From the IMG/VR virus record IMGVR_UViG_3300042516_000810, positions 1-21,177 of that record: 21,177 nt of DNA; one strand, 5' to 3'. The translations under genes were made by a program, and so were the position numbers. This document shows positions 2,052 through 6,782 of the stretch, piece after piece; the first letter of the stretch is position 1; the number at the start of each line of letters is the position of its first letter. Source of the stretch: a virus. The notes under the pieces are model-generated. The model had not been told where the DNA came from, searched no databases, and saw only the letters and a list, made by a program, of their open reading frames with translations.

Positions 2052-3509
2052 GTGGGTAATTACTCGTATGATTCGGAGAAGTTATCGGCTAAAGCACTAG
2101 AGACTACTATTCTAGAGTTTCCTGAGAAGATGGGTTGGTTCTTATCAAAGGGTTACGCGCCGCACTACTACCAAGTTTTATTCCATACGGATAAGAATAA
2201 TAAGATTCTTACTCGTTTTCGTCATCTTGTTGCTGGTCGTCGCGGCGGTAAGACTCTTAGTGCCGCTTGGGAAGTGTTATTTTATTGTTTGCATCCTGAA
2301 CAATTTCATTTGGATGCTCATGGGAAGAAAAATAATGCTTCTTTGTGGGTTTGGGCGTTGTCCGCGTCGTATAAGGTAGGCCGCCCATCGTATCTTACGT
2401 TCCGAGACGTATGTATCAAGGCTGGTTTGACGATTGGCAAGGAAGTTAAAGAGAATAAGGGTGGTCTTCGCTTCGAATTTGAGAATGGAAGCCTCGTAGA
2501 GTTCAAATCTGCTGAGGATCCACAGTCTCTTCGCGGCGCAGGACTTGATATTCTCTGGATGGACGAGGCCGCTTTCATTAAAAGCGACGAGTCGTGGGGC
2601 GTTATCAGACCATCCTTGTCAGATAAGCAAGGATTGCTGATTACAACGACCACGCCAAACCAGAAAAACTGGTTCTACGAAGAGTTTTTTAGTAATGATG
2701 CTCGTAAAGACACGAATAATAGTCGCGTAGAGTATCGTAGCATTGATAATCCTTATTTTAAGCGTGAAGAGTGGGAGTATGTGCAGTCTAGGTATCATCC
2801 GCTGCTATTCGCACAAGAGTATATGGCGAGTTTTGACAGTATGGCGGGCAAAGACCTTGCCGGAGACTGGCTGCACTATTATACGCACGAAGATTTGCTA
2901 GATAATGAGGGAAAGCCGCTGAAACTGCGAAAATATATGGGAGTAGACCCGGCGATCAGCCTCTCAGCCAACGCTGACAGGTTCGTAATCACCATAATCG
3001 GGGTATCAGACTCTAACGAAGTGTTTCTACTAGAGCAGTATGCGGCGAGAATTCCCTTCGCAGAACAACTCCTGAAGATTGAGGAGTATTATATTAAGCA
3101 TAAGCCAGAGATTATTGGTATTGAGTCTAATGCTTATCAGGCGGCACTCGTGCAGCAGACTGAAAGGTTGCAAACGATGCCGCCGGTTGTTCCTTTGTTT
3201 GCTAAGGGTAAGAAGTGGGAGCGTATTCTTGCTATGAGTCCTTTGTTTAGGATTGGTAAGGTGAAGATTAAGAAGGATCATGCTGATTTTATTCAGGAGT
3301 GGGTTGATTATGATTCTGCTCTTCGTGCTCCTAAGGATGACTGTTTGGATAGTATGGAGATTGCTCTTCGTACGGCTGGCGCGTTGTTGGGTGAGTTTTC
3401 TCCTCCGGCTAAGGAGGAGAGTGTTCTTCCGGATTGGGTTCTTGCGGATCGTCCGGGGAATAGAACTGATGATTCTTTTGTTGACGAGTTTATGGGGAGT
3501 ATGTGGTAA
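2052..3509 (+). CDS. terL: Terminase large subunit (packaging ATPase/nuclease)
   Basis: This 485-residue motor pumps DNA into the prohead and cuts the concatemer. The ATPase domain shows Walker A GRRGGKT (62-68), Walker B ILWMDE (167-172) and a coupling motif TTTTPN (198-203). The RNase H-like nuclease domain shows GVDPA with D299, GIESN with E358, and D429/D430/D433 in APKDDCLD. Length and order are normal for the family. GTG at 2052 is placed by AAGGAG (2041-2046). Base usage is patchy: bases from about 2400 to 3090 use many A- and C-ending codons, whereas after about 3100 the T/G-ending preference of the rest of the window resumes. The small subunit is not directly upstream; the best candidate is the helix-turn-helix gene at 6279. 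Confidence 0.97.
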   Translation: MGNYSYDSEKLSAKALETTILEFPEKMGWFLSKGYAPHYYQVLFHTDKNNKILTRFRHLVAGRRGGKTLSAAWEVLFYCLHPEQFHLDAHGKKNNASLWVWALSASYKVGRPSYLTFRDVCIKAGLTIGKEVKENKGGLRFEFENGSLVEFKSAEDPQSLRGAGLDILWMDEAAFIKSDESWGVIRPSLSDKQGLLITTTTPNQKNWFYEEFFSNDARKDTNNSRVEYRSIDNPYFKREEWEYVQSRYHPLLFAQEYMASFDSMAGKDLAGDWLHYYTHEDLLDNEGKPLKLRKYMGVDPAISLSANADRFVITIIGVSDSNEVFLLEQYAARIPFAEQLLKIEEYYIKHKPEIIGIESNAYQAALVQQTERLQTMPPVVPLFAKGKKWERILAMSPLFRIGKVKIKKDHADFIQEWVDYDSALRAPKDDCLDSMEIALRTAGALLGEFSPPAKEESVLPDWVLADRPGNRTDDSFVDEFMGSMW

Positions 3510-3511
3510 TT

Positions 3512-3853
3512 ATGAAGTGGATTGAGTCTATTAAGGGTAATGCTGCTGATGCGATTACGGGTGAGCGTATTTTTCCGGGTGAGCGAGTGTTTGATACGGA
3601 GGTTCCTAATCGTAAGACTGCGTATTTGATGATGTTTCGTACTCGTGTTTTGAAGGAGGAGACTATTGTTTCGTTGGCAGAGGCAGCGGGATACACTGTT
3701 ATTAAGCGTGATGCAGGAGATTCTGGAAACGCAGAGGTCGTGGACGGAGAGGATGTTAGCGTTGGAGGAGGAGAGGTTGAGGTTGGAGAGGCTCCGGTTG
3801 GAGGGAAGCCAGCCGCTAAGCGACGTTCCTCTGGGGCATCTAAGGGTAAGTGA
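3512..3853 (+). CDS. Hypothetical protein, 5' partner of an overlapping gene pair
   Basis: This 113-residue protein is not assigned to a family. The N-terminal half (MKWIESIKGN, TGERIFPGERVFDTEVP, AYLMMFRTRVLKEETIVSLAEAAGY) looks folded. From about residue 70 it becomes low complexity: Gly/Glu/Val-rich, then a basic tail (KPAAKRRSSGASKGK). That tail lies in the part also read in the +1 frame by the 3666 gene. Codons before the overlap are T/G-ending; inside it GCA, GGA and other non-preferred codons appear. The ATG follows the terminase stop by two bases; an in-frame GTG at 3503, three bases after GGGGAG, is the alternative start. Its place between terminase and portal suggests a packaging or head role, but that is only context. 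Confidence 0.7.
   Translation: MKWIESIKGNAADAITGERIFPGERVFDTEVPNRKTAYLMMFRTRVLKEETIVSLAEAAGYTVIKRDAGDSGNAEVVDGEDVSVGGGEVEVGEAPVGGKPAAKRRSSGASKGK
3653..3661 (+). promoter_or_regulatory. Internal ribosome binding site AAGGAGGAG for the overlapping gene
   Basis: A full AAGGAGG match lies inside the 3512 gene, encoding its Lys-Glu-Glu. It is six bases (from GGAGG) ahead of TTG at 3666, and decides the start of the overlapping +1-frame gene. Confidence 0.7.
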
Positions 3854-3965
3854 GGATGAGCAGGATCTTGATTGGGCTTTGAGTCAGGGTATTGTGTCTC
3901 CTCAGGAGTATAAGGATCTTCTTGAGAAGACGGGGCTTGCTCCTTCTGATCTTGAATTATTATAA
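3666..3965 (+). CDS. Overlapping (+1 frame) coiled-coil hypothetical protein
   Basis: This is a 99-residue protein whose first 188 bases lie inside the 3512 gene. Residues 17-47 are a charged helix (LETQR, TERMLALEEERLRLERLRLEG) with coiled-coil character. Residues 62-99 (SEDEQDLDWALSQGIVSPQEYKDLLEKTGL) resemble a short helical domain with a phage-head-protein look. TTG at 3666 follows a perfect AAGGAGG; ATG at 3711 is the alternative but lacks a good site. The non-overlapping end (3854-3965) shows the window's T/G-ending codon preference in this frame, which argues that it is translated. The stop TAA is followed at once by the portal's GGGGG. Function is unknown; a connector or packaging accessory is possible from position only. 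Confidence 0.75.
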   Translation: MFRWQRQRDTLLLSVMQEILETQRSWTERMLALEEERLRLERLRLEGSQPLSDVPLGHLRVSEDEQDLDWALSQGIVSPQEYKDLLEKTGLAPSDLELL

Positions 3966-3976
3966 GGGGGCTTGGT

Positions 3977-6286
3977 TTGGAAGAGACTGGTAATGATTAT
4001 TCGGAGGATATTCCGACTGGTTTTGCTTCGGCGGCTAGTCTCGTTAAGCGTGTTGAAGAGTTGCAGCGTCAGCGTGATCTTATGGAGCGTCAGTGGAAGT
4101 TGAATTTGGCGTTTTATAAGGGTAAGCAGTATGTGTTTTATAATCGTCGCACTCGTCGTATTGAGTCTCTTCCTACTGATGATGGTGATAAGCCGCGTTA
4201 TCGTGTGCGGTTGGTGTCGAATCAGATTGCTCCTAATACTATGTCGTTGTTGAGTCGTCTTGTTAAGTCTAAGCCTCAGTTTTTTGCTACTCCGGGGCAG
4301 GCGTCGTTTGAGGCGCAGAAGGCTACGGAGGTTGCTGAGAATCTTCTTGATTATTGGTGGGATGAGTTTCATTTGACTGAGAAGCGGGAAGAGGCGATGA
4401 TGTGGGGTATTATTGCTGGTAATGGGTTTTGGAAGATTACTTGGGATGATAAGGCTGGTCCGGGTATGCGGGTTACGCTTGATCCTAATGGTATGCCTAT
4501 TGTTGATCCTATGGTTGAGTATTATTTTAAGCAGAATCTTGAGATGGCTGGTGTTGATCCGTTGTCTTTTGAGAAGCGTGTGTTTCAGGGTGAGATTCGT
4601 GTGGATGTGTTGTCTCCGTTTGATGTGTTTTTGGATGATTCTGCTTCGGTGTTTGAGGATTGTAAGTATGCGTTTTGTGTGCATCCTATGACGAGTGATG
4701 AGATTTTTGAGCGTTATGGTGTGCGTTTGAAGCCTAATGCTGTTAATAGGTATCCTGATGAGACTCTTCCGGGTGCGTTTGGGAATAATGAGGCGAAGAC
4801 GCAGGAGAATGTGCGTATTGTGTATTATGGGTATTTTGTGCCGGGTGGTAAGTATCCTGAGGGTCGTTTTGTTGTGTTTACGAAGGATCCGTCTGTTGTG
4901 TTGTATGATGCTCCGTGGCCGTATCCGTTTAACGAGTTGCCTCTTGTGAAGTTTCCGGGTATGCGTGTTCCGGGGCAGTTGTGGGATTCGTCTGTTGTTG
5001 AGCAGGCTATTCCTCTTCAGAAGGAGTTGAATCGTTCGTTGTCGCAGGTTATTGAGTATAAGAATCTTACGTTGAAGCCGCAGATGTTGGCTCCGGTTGG
5101 TTCTTTGCGTCAGCGTATTACTGATGAGCCGGGTGCTATTTTTGAGTATAATCCGGTTGCTGGTAAGGTTCCTGAGAGCATTCCGATTCCTTCGTTGCCT
5201 CCGTATGTGTTTGAGCATTTGCGTGATTTGGGTAATCGTTTGAAGGATGTGTTTGGTCTTAATGAGATTGTGGAGGGTAGTGTTCCTCCGAATGTTGAGG
5301 CTGGTGTGGCTATTGATCTTCTTCAGGAGGCCGCTACTGATCGTTTGGCTCCTCAAATTATGATGATGGAGAAGAGTTTGGAGCGTGCTGGTAATTTGAT
5401 GTTGCAGTTGGCTCAGAAGTATTATAATGAGCCTCGTACGATGATTATTACTGGTTCTGGTTCTAAGCCTAAGGTTGCTCGGTTTGAGGATGCTGATCTT
5501 ATTAAGGGTGTGAGTGTGCGTGTTGAGGCTGGTTCTGGTTTGCCGCGTACTCGTGCTGGTCGGCAGGCTCGCGTTATGCAACTTATGCAGATGGGTTTGT
5601 TGTCGCCTACGAAGGCGTATAAGTATCTTGATATGGCTGATTTTAAGTCGTTGCAGATGCAGTTTGAGGCTGATGAGGAGCAGGCGCTTCGGGAGCATGA
5701 TGTGTTGCTTGATGGTGGGGTTGTGAATGAGCAGGAGGCTAAGAAGGCTAATGATGCGTTGTTGATGCAGATTATGCAGAATCCTGATGCTCCTATTGAT
5801 CCTATGTTGTTGCAGCAGAGTGTTGAGGCTGGTTTGTCGCCGCTTGCGTTTGAGAATAAGAGTGCGCATTTGGAGACTCATGCGTCGTTTATGAAGAGTG
5901 CTGAGTTTGAGACGCTTCCTAGTGAGATTAAGGATCGTTTTTATAAGCATTACGAGTTGACTCTTGCTGCTGTTCAGGCTGAGGCTGCGCCGACGGGTGA
6001 GGCTCCGAAGGTTTCGCTTCAGTTGCGTGGCGCGGTTGGACCTACGGCTGGTAGTCAGATTCTTACGAATAGTGGTATTAAGAATGTTACTCCGCAGACG
6101 TTGTTGGAGCCGCCGCTTGATACGGTTGTTATTGATAATAAGGATAAGCCTAATTCGGCTGAGGGTGTTGGTGGCGAGTTGGGTCGGTCGCAGTTGGAGT
6201 TGTTGCAGAAGTTGCAGCAGGAGCAGGCTATGGCTGATCAGGAACTTGTTAATGAGCAGCGGCGTATGGCGGTGCGTGGTGAGTAG
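3977..6286 (+). CDS. Portal protein
   Basis: This 769-residue protein is expected to form the ring at the capsid vertex through which terminase packages DNA and to which the tail attaches. The N-terminal part has a helix (LVKRVEELQRQRDLMERQWK), the FYKGKQYV segment, then VSNQIAPNTMSLLSRLVKSKPQFFATPG (about 75-105) and GNGFWKITWDD (about 149-159), which are typical of large podovirus-type portals. The middle carries the helical PLQKELNRSLSQVIEYKNL and LRDLGNRLKDVFGLNEIVEG segments. The C-terminal end (QLELLQKLQQEQAMADQELVNEQRR) is a likely coiled coil in the barrel or crown. TTG at 3977 is set by AAGGGGG (3964-3970). The last bases overlap the next gene by eight. Codons are strongly T/G-ending. 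Confidence 0.9.
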   Translation: MEETGNDYSEDIPTGFASAASLVKRVEELQRQRDLMERQWKLNLAFYKGKQYVFYNRRTRRIESLPTDDGDKPRYRVRLVSNQIAPNTMSLLSRLVKSKPQFFATPGQASFEAQKATEVAENLLDYWWDEFHLTEKREEAMMWGIIAGNGFWKITWDDKAGPGMRVTLDPNGMPIVDPMVEYYFKQNLEMAGVDPLSFEKRVFQGEIRVDVLSPFDVFLDDSASVFEDCKYAFCVHPMTSDEIFERYGVRLKPNAVNRYPDETLPGAFGNNEAKTQENVRIVYYGYFVPGGKYPEGRFVVFTKDPSVVLYDAPWPYPFNELPLVKFPGMRVPGQLWDSSVVEQAIPLQKELNRSLSQVIEYKNLTLKPQMLAPVGSLRQRITDEPGAIFEYNPVAGKVPESIPIPSLPPYVFEHLRDLGNRLKDVFGLNEIVEGSVPPNVEAGVAIDLLQEAATDRLAPQIMMMEKSLERAGNLMLQLAQKYYNEPRTMIITGSGSKPKVARFEDADLIKGVSVRVEAGSGLPRTRAGRQARVMQLMQMGLLSPTKAYKYLDMADFKSLQMQFEADEEQALREHDVLLDGGVVNEQEAKKANDALLMQIMQNPDAPIDPMLLQQSVEAGLSPLAFENKSAHLETHASFMKSAEFETLPSEIKDRFYKHYELTLAAVQAEAAPTGEAPKVSLQLRGAVGPTAGSQILTNSGIKNVTPQTLLEPPLDTVVIDNKDKPNSAEGVGGELGRSQLELLQKLQQEQAMADQELVNEQRRMAVRGE

Positions 6287-6782
6287 GCAAGAGCGTACGG
6301 AGTGGGATGATAAGGCTAAGGCTGCTACGTATGTGCAGTGGATTGCTTGTGATAAGCGTATTCGTGAGACTAGTCGTGTTACTGGTGTTCCTCATGCTAC
6401 TGTTGCGTATTGGGCTAAGCAGTGGGAGAAGGATGGTCCTCCTGAGAGTATGGATGCTGAGATTCGTAAGAATGCTTATGAGTTTGTTGATCATGCTAAT
6501 CGTGTGCGTAAGCAGGCGATGGAGAAGTTGGAGGCGCTTATTCCTGAGGCTGAGGTGAAGCAGTTGTCGGCTATTGCTACTGTTGTGGGTATTATGGATG
6601 ATAAGATTCGTCTTGCGCAGGGTCTTGCTACGAAGCGTACTGAGACTGTGCATACGCTTCCTACTCGTGATGAGATGAAGGAGTTGATGAGTGGTTTTGC
6701 TGATGGGCTTGTGGCTGCTGCGGAGGATCGCGCGGCTGAGGTTGTTAGTATTGAGCCGCTTAGTGTTGTTGTTAATGATTAG
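6279..6782 (+). CDS. Helix-turn-helix protein, candidate small terminase subunit
   Basis: This is a 167-residue protein. Residues 28-49 (RIRETSRVTGVPHATVAYWAKQW) read as a helix-turn-helix, and residues 60-115 are long helices (AEIRKNAYEFVDHANRVRKQAMEKLEALIPE), the usual plan of small terminase subunits: DNA-binding N terminus and helical oligomerisation core. A Thr/Pro-containing C-terminal part follows. Small terminases recognise the packaging site and load the large subunit. The start is GTG at 6279 (or 6276), overlapping the portal end by eight bases, with only a weak upstream GGCGGTG, so translation is probably coupled to the portal. Its place after the portal rather than beside the large subunit is less common. 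Alternative: a regulator or another head-assembly protein. Confidence 0.65.
   Translation: MSRQERTEWDDKAKAATYVQWIACDKRIRETSRVTGVPHATVAYWAKQWEKDGPPESMDAEIRKNAYEFVDHANRVRKQAMEKLEALIPEAEVKQLSAIATVVGIMDDKIRLAQGLATKRTETVHTLPTRDEMKELMSGFADGLVAAAEDRAAEVVSIEPLSVVVND

Follow-up and report, generated by a model that had tools for sequence, protein, structure and literature searches.

A conserved same-strand overlap of two small tailed-phage genes located between terminase and portal, with selection apparently divided along its length

Two small genes that lie between the terminase and portal genes in a lineage of uncultured tailed phages, here called G1 and G2, form what is with high probability a true and conserved same-strand (+1) overlap, in which selection is segregated along the shared stretch, G2 is the older gene and the overlap grew by a 3′ extension of G1. 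Both proteins are very probably real, and the patterns described below suggest that both products are translated. In particular, G2 would be translated from its own Shine-Dalgarno sequence and TTG codon inside G1, and selection would act first on the folded end of G1 and then on the long helix of G2. In the second part of the overlap, G1 would add only a disordered tail, which must stay open, hydrophilic and rich in lysine and arginine.

The overlap and the proteins it encodes

The window (the whole 21-kb stretch of DNA analysed, from an uncultured virus record) carries, in order, the terminase large subunit gene (2052-3509), G1, G2 and a P22-like portal gene (3977-6286). Both reading frames and their overlap lie exactly where an earlier note, made from the sequence alone, had placed them, and the Shine-Dalgarno motif and TTG start that it described are present (Table 1). 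A small terminase gene was not found 5′ of the large subunit in the window; judged by eye, the N-terminus of an ORF 3′ of the portal (6290-6782) is HTH-like, and this ORF could encode the small terminase.

Table 1. Features of the G1/G2 locus in the window, with the evidence for each.
Feature	Position	Strand	Description or evidence
G1	3512..3853	+	ORF, ATG at 3512, stop at 3853, 113 aa
G2	3666..3965	+	ORF, TTG at 3666, stop at 3965, 99 aa
Probable dual-coding overlap of 188 nt; G2 frame is +1 with respect to G1	3666..3853	+	Relatives, openness, constraint, composition
AAGGAGG, putative Shine-Dalgarno of G2; lies within G1, where it encodes Lys-Glu	3653..3659	+	Sequence; AAGGAG in relatives
Overlap part 1: last helix of G1 apparently constrained, G2 not detectably	3666..3698	+	NN/NS and NN/SN at nt 5-33
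Overlap part 2: helix of G2 apparently constrained; G1 tail free in sequence, kept open and hydrophilic	3699..3853	+	Ratios measured to nt 171; composition

Relatives were gathered by using the terminase and portal to scan viral contigs, and they are not independent samples. Altogether, 58 distinct relatives (40 of them below 95% identity) carry both genes in the identical +1 frame with overlaps of 146-209 nt, and two later scans yielded about 45 further entries with the same plan, not fully deduplicated. The same-phase overlap is conserved throughout these 58 sequences and the later scans, with identity to the window protein falling to 33-36% for G1 and 53-58% for G2, and with the G1 stop position shifting by up to about 60 nt. 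G2 starts with TTG in 58/58 relatives and is preceded by AAGGAG in 56/58, with AGGGAG in one more (L051). The conservation of AAGGAG is weak evidence by itself, as AAGGAG encodes Lys-Glu in 46/72 cases in portal genes, and TTG is not unusual either, as it is also the start codon of 26/31 portals for which the start is clear; the AGGGAG of L051, whose Arg codon serves 4% of Arg, is a better hint that the Shine-Dalgarno sequence is kept. In four relatives (L008 at 5909-6746, and also L009, L107 and L108), an insert of about 840 nt separates G2 from the portal and carries an ORF of about 240 codons that is glycosyltransferase-like by eye.

G2 is predicted to consist of one helix (residues 2-47) and a C-terminal helical hairpin (model pLDDT 79). 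Its C-terminus matches the Pfam model SHOCT_2 in 2/56 members (best E 0.0069), and the window protein matches none of the SHOCT models. Phage records gave no match for the G2 protein or for the DNA, a related locus was not found in bacterial or archaeal genomes, and searching viral and solved structures with the G2 model in Foldseek returned nothing significant; Pfam and PHROGs offered no meaningful family for G1 or G2. Because G2 adjoins the portal and is retained in all lineages, its position suggests a role in packaging or head assembly with G1 as an accessory, and both proteins may act there beside the portal.

The AlphaFold model of G1 has a domain from residue 1 to about 62 (pLDDT about 80-90) and a tail with a pLDDT of about 42, with disorder predicted from residue ~69 (nt ~3716). 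The G1 product had been described as turning low-complexity exactly where G2 forms a charged coiled coil; disorder is indeed predicted over G2, but its onset does not coincide with the start of the overlap, of which the initial ~33-45 nt still code for the end of the G1 folded part. A match of the tail to DDE_Tnp_IS1595 fell below that model's own cut-off in low-complexity sequence and was discarded. Window-clade G1 lacks the four cysteines in two CxxC pairs of a C4 zinc finger; the pairs of its C4 relatives align to AxTG and KExT, the profile comparison with those relatives scores weakly (hhalign 15%, E 0.0017), and the model's fold matches are mostly zinc fingers, but low (Z below 5). G1 therefore looks like a degenerate zinc finger that would have lost its cysteines and zinc binding.

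Lineages without G1 and the age of G2

Three groups of lineages (L053; L260/L265; L267/L268/L280) have no intact G1 and retain G2. In L053, a decayed remnant of G1 is left and the Shine-Dalgarno sequence, TTG and FGW of G2 are still present, and in L260 and L268, G2 starts at the terminase stop codon (TAGTG and TAATG) at the same residue. Across genomes lacking G1, the G1 frame over G2 acquires 4-7 stop-making sites and T-ending codons return (20/43 in L053, 23/40 in L260 and 21/34 in L268, versus 195/1241 in the family); closing of the frame accompanies loss of G1. Relatives with an interrupted frame had been named beforehand as the observation that would refute dual coding, and such relatives exist; because the interruption is confined to genomes without G1, it supports dual coding instead. 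Since the terminase tree and the portal tree both place L053 and L260/L265 inside the clade (topologies taken without branch supports), G1 appears to have been lost at least twice independently; L268/L280 are sister to the clade in one tree and nested in the other, again on topology without branch supports. Upstream of the terminase, L268 (1477-1611) and L267 (138-272) carry a 45-aa ORF that contains two CxxC pairs (WNCMKCSEENAHYLVKCGMCGERRP) and resembles, by eye, a RanBP2-type zinc finger.

Further, distant relatives, with about 50% identity in terminase, carry a G2 homologue (hhalign 97.5%, E 7e-12). Several of these homologues show M-F-G and an N-terminal helix by eye together with the same C-terminal motif, and their overlap with the preceding gene is mostly absent or short (about 1-65 nt where the start is callable). 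The product of that preceding gene is a small CxxC...CxxC protein whose tail looks disordered; it aligns with G1 over the domain. The loci L063 and L075 are without G1 entirely. The earlier note had read the second frame as overprinted on an older, disordered G1 tail, and this part of its interpretation is not supported. It is improbable that G2 arose de novo by overprinting on such a tail: G1-type genes with disordered tails do occur in distant phages, but G2 homologues occur beyond the overlap clade, mostly with no or short overlap and in some cases (L063, L075) without G1, and G2 outlives G1. The polarity is probably reversed, with G2 the older and widely retained gene and the G1 tail written over it, because distant G2 homologues mostly have no or short overlap and G2 persists without G1. 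The overlap most likely grew as the 3′ end of G1 extended into G2 in an ancestor of the clade.

The same genomes bear on where G2 begins. At its 5′ end, no constraint can be distinguished from that of G1, which leaves the first ~10 codons without G2-specific constraint, and Met is conserved at codons 15-16; translation could start there instead, at a conserved GTG-ATG (nt 3708-3713), and the overlap would then be about 143 nt. Such a later start is very unlikely, given that the Shine-Dalgarno sequence and TTG are conserved in relatives, that in genomes without G1 the residue of G2 that aligns with the TTG is its start, coded ATG or GTG and followed by Phe, that L053 retains the Shine-Dalgarno sequence, TTG and FGW after losing G1, and that the internal ATG has no visible Shine-Dalgarno sequence ahead of it. 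In genomes where G2 directly follows the terminase, it starts with GTG or ATG instead of TTG. A G1 codon NTT (Ile, Leu or Val) may force G2 to begin with TTG in the overlapping genomes; against this, portals favour TTG too.

An open frame and divided selection

The openness of the G1 frame was compared with simulations in which the G2 protein was held fixed and codons were drawn from each phage's portal gene. Across 39 genomes, the simulated G1 frame was open in a median of 0.1% of trials (maximum 2%), and the real frame is open in 39/39; the simulation expects about 4 stops in the G1 tail region, where none is observed. Outside the overlap, observed and predicted stops agree in the control stretches (6.2/6.1, 7.7/8.3 and 9.1/8.5).

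Moreover, T-ending codons are absent from overlap sites where they would create a stop in G1 (0/568, compared with 66% over the remainder of G2 and 78% for the portal), and they are also reduced at sites harmless to G1 (24%, versus 63-67% elsewhere). The loss of T/G-ending codons inside the overlap, noticed at first in the window, is real and general: third-position T in G2 falls to 11% in the overlap, versus 48% for the remainder of the gene and 52% for the portal (40 non-redundant relatives). As the sole evidence of dual coding, this loss was rejected, because parts of the terminase gene dip likewise, with T-ending codons at 12-30% and no long second frame visible (2577-2651, 2802-2876 and 2952-3026, or codons ~175-200, ~250-275 and ~300-325; in the window and in most of the relatives that were checked). 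A simple test of whether synonymous differences are depleted in the overlap gave a negative result; Leu codons change frequently there, and with stratification by amino acid the odds ratio was 0.84.

Nucleotide changes were then scored by their effects in both frames for 20 disjoint closest pairs, giving dN/dS-like ratios, of which those for G1 are rough because G1-synonymous sites are mostly second positions of G2. At overlap nt 5-33, nonsynonymous changes are suppressed in G1 (NN/NS 0.17) and not in G2 (NN/SN 1.10); the ratios become 0.35 for G2 and 0.95 for G1 at nt 33-100, and 0.32 for G2 and 1.52 for G1 at nt 100-171. With more pairs, which are then not independent, the gradient along the overlap is smoother. 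The hand-over lies near the end of the predicted last helix of G1 (residues 49-58), before model confidence falls at residue ~69, and the overlap is judged real in part because the hand-over matches this predicted domain border. The suggestion that G2 is the constrained frame thus stands for most of the overlap (0.32-0.35), but for the first ~30 nt it is G1 that is constrained (0.17 versus 1.10). Protein-level selection appears to be present in each frame, on G1 at nt 5-33 and on G2 beyond, with selection on G1 in its tail limited to composition.

Amino-acid identity in the G1 tail is unconstrained, and because of this the function of the tail is possibly only a very weak one. Its composition, by comparison with simulations that keep the frame open, is shifted toward a hydrophilic tail (GRAVY -0.97 versus +0.20; hydrophobic residues 1.3% versus 23%; Lys/Arg 18% versus 3.5%), with hydropathy and Lys/Arg shifted in 39/39 genomes. 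In control stretches, hydrophobic residues are unshifted and the Lys/Arg shift is smaller. These differences suggest that the composition of the tail reflects selection. It is conceivable, though we place it a little short of an even chance, that the tail is selected for composition alone, its sequence drifting with the synonymous sites of G2, and that the G1 NTT codon holds the G2 start at TTG.

If only G2 were functional, the open G1 frame would be a by-product of G2 amino acids and codon bias. The freedom of the tail's sequence and the variation of the stop position by ~60 nt suit that explanation; it is refuted for openness by the probability of about 0.1% per genome, and the frame closes once G1 is absent, and the G1 folded domain together with the first ~30 nt of the overlap is conserved as protein, so that we regard it as quite improbable. 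A conserved RNA structure, in place of a second protein, is the least credible source of the codon pattern: the window folds somewhat better than shuffles at 3620-3710 (z -1.9), but five relatives give z of 0 to 1.5 with no common structure, the G2 start region included, and openness and tail composition would be left unexplained. A dual-coding overlap is the preferred reading, and the first claim of the earlier note, that two frames are maintained at once, is borne out by the openness of the G1 frame, the segregated constraint and the composition of the tail.

Comparison with known overlaps and meaning

The G1/G2 pair resembles the long same-strand +1 (phase-1) overlaps of dsDNA viruses and bacteria in joining adjacent, co-oriented genes by a terminal overlap (PMC8903798, PMC7017920, PMC3887535), which more often originate when the upstream gene lengthens at its 3′ end (PMC3887535). 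In viruses, +1 overlaps have a median of 14 nt (interquartile range 8-26; PMC8903798), and 84% of viral overlaps are below 50 nt (PMC7017920). Unlike typical +1 overlaps, that of G1/G2 spans 146-209 nt, is kept across a divergent clade and comes with natural loss of one gene. As in the overlapping genes of HIV-1 (PMC9119678), one gene dominates each stretch and a disordered part lies over a structured one; unlike them, G1/G2 occurs in tailed phages, with a single hand-over point and a compositional constraint in the freer frame. Long +1 overlaps are thus known but uncommon and segregated constraint is known from HIV-1, and G1/G2 is a new, well-documented case.

Two small ORFs occupy the same terminase-portal position in Arthrobacter phage Jasmine, Microbacterium phage Shocker, Cellulosimicrobium phage DS1 and podovirus ctEqG8, and in DS1 and ctEqG8 a CxxC...CxxC protein with an acidic tail is encoded there. 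BLASTP of G1 against Shocker gp18 was not significant and gives no link. Annotation readily overlooks long dual-coding stretches in tailed phages: in ctEqG8, the two ORFs share an unannotated overlap of about 149 nt (L147, 4170-4318), and the annotated downstream gene begins only at 4311, close to where the upstream ORF ends. If the G1 tail is selected for composition alone, a disordered tail would be encoded through another gene's synonymous freedom. Overall, with its nearly one hundred sequences, the recurrent absence of G1 and an abrupt hand-over of constraint, the family is well suited for testing how selection in overlapping genes can be measured and whether selection on disordered tails acts on their composition rather than on their sequence.
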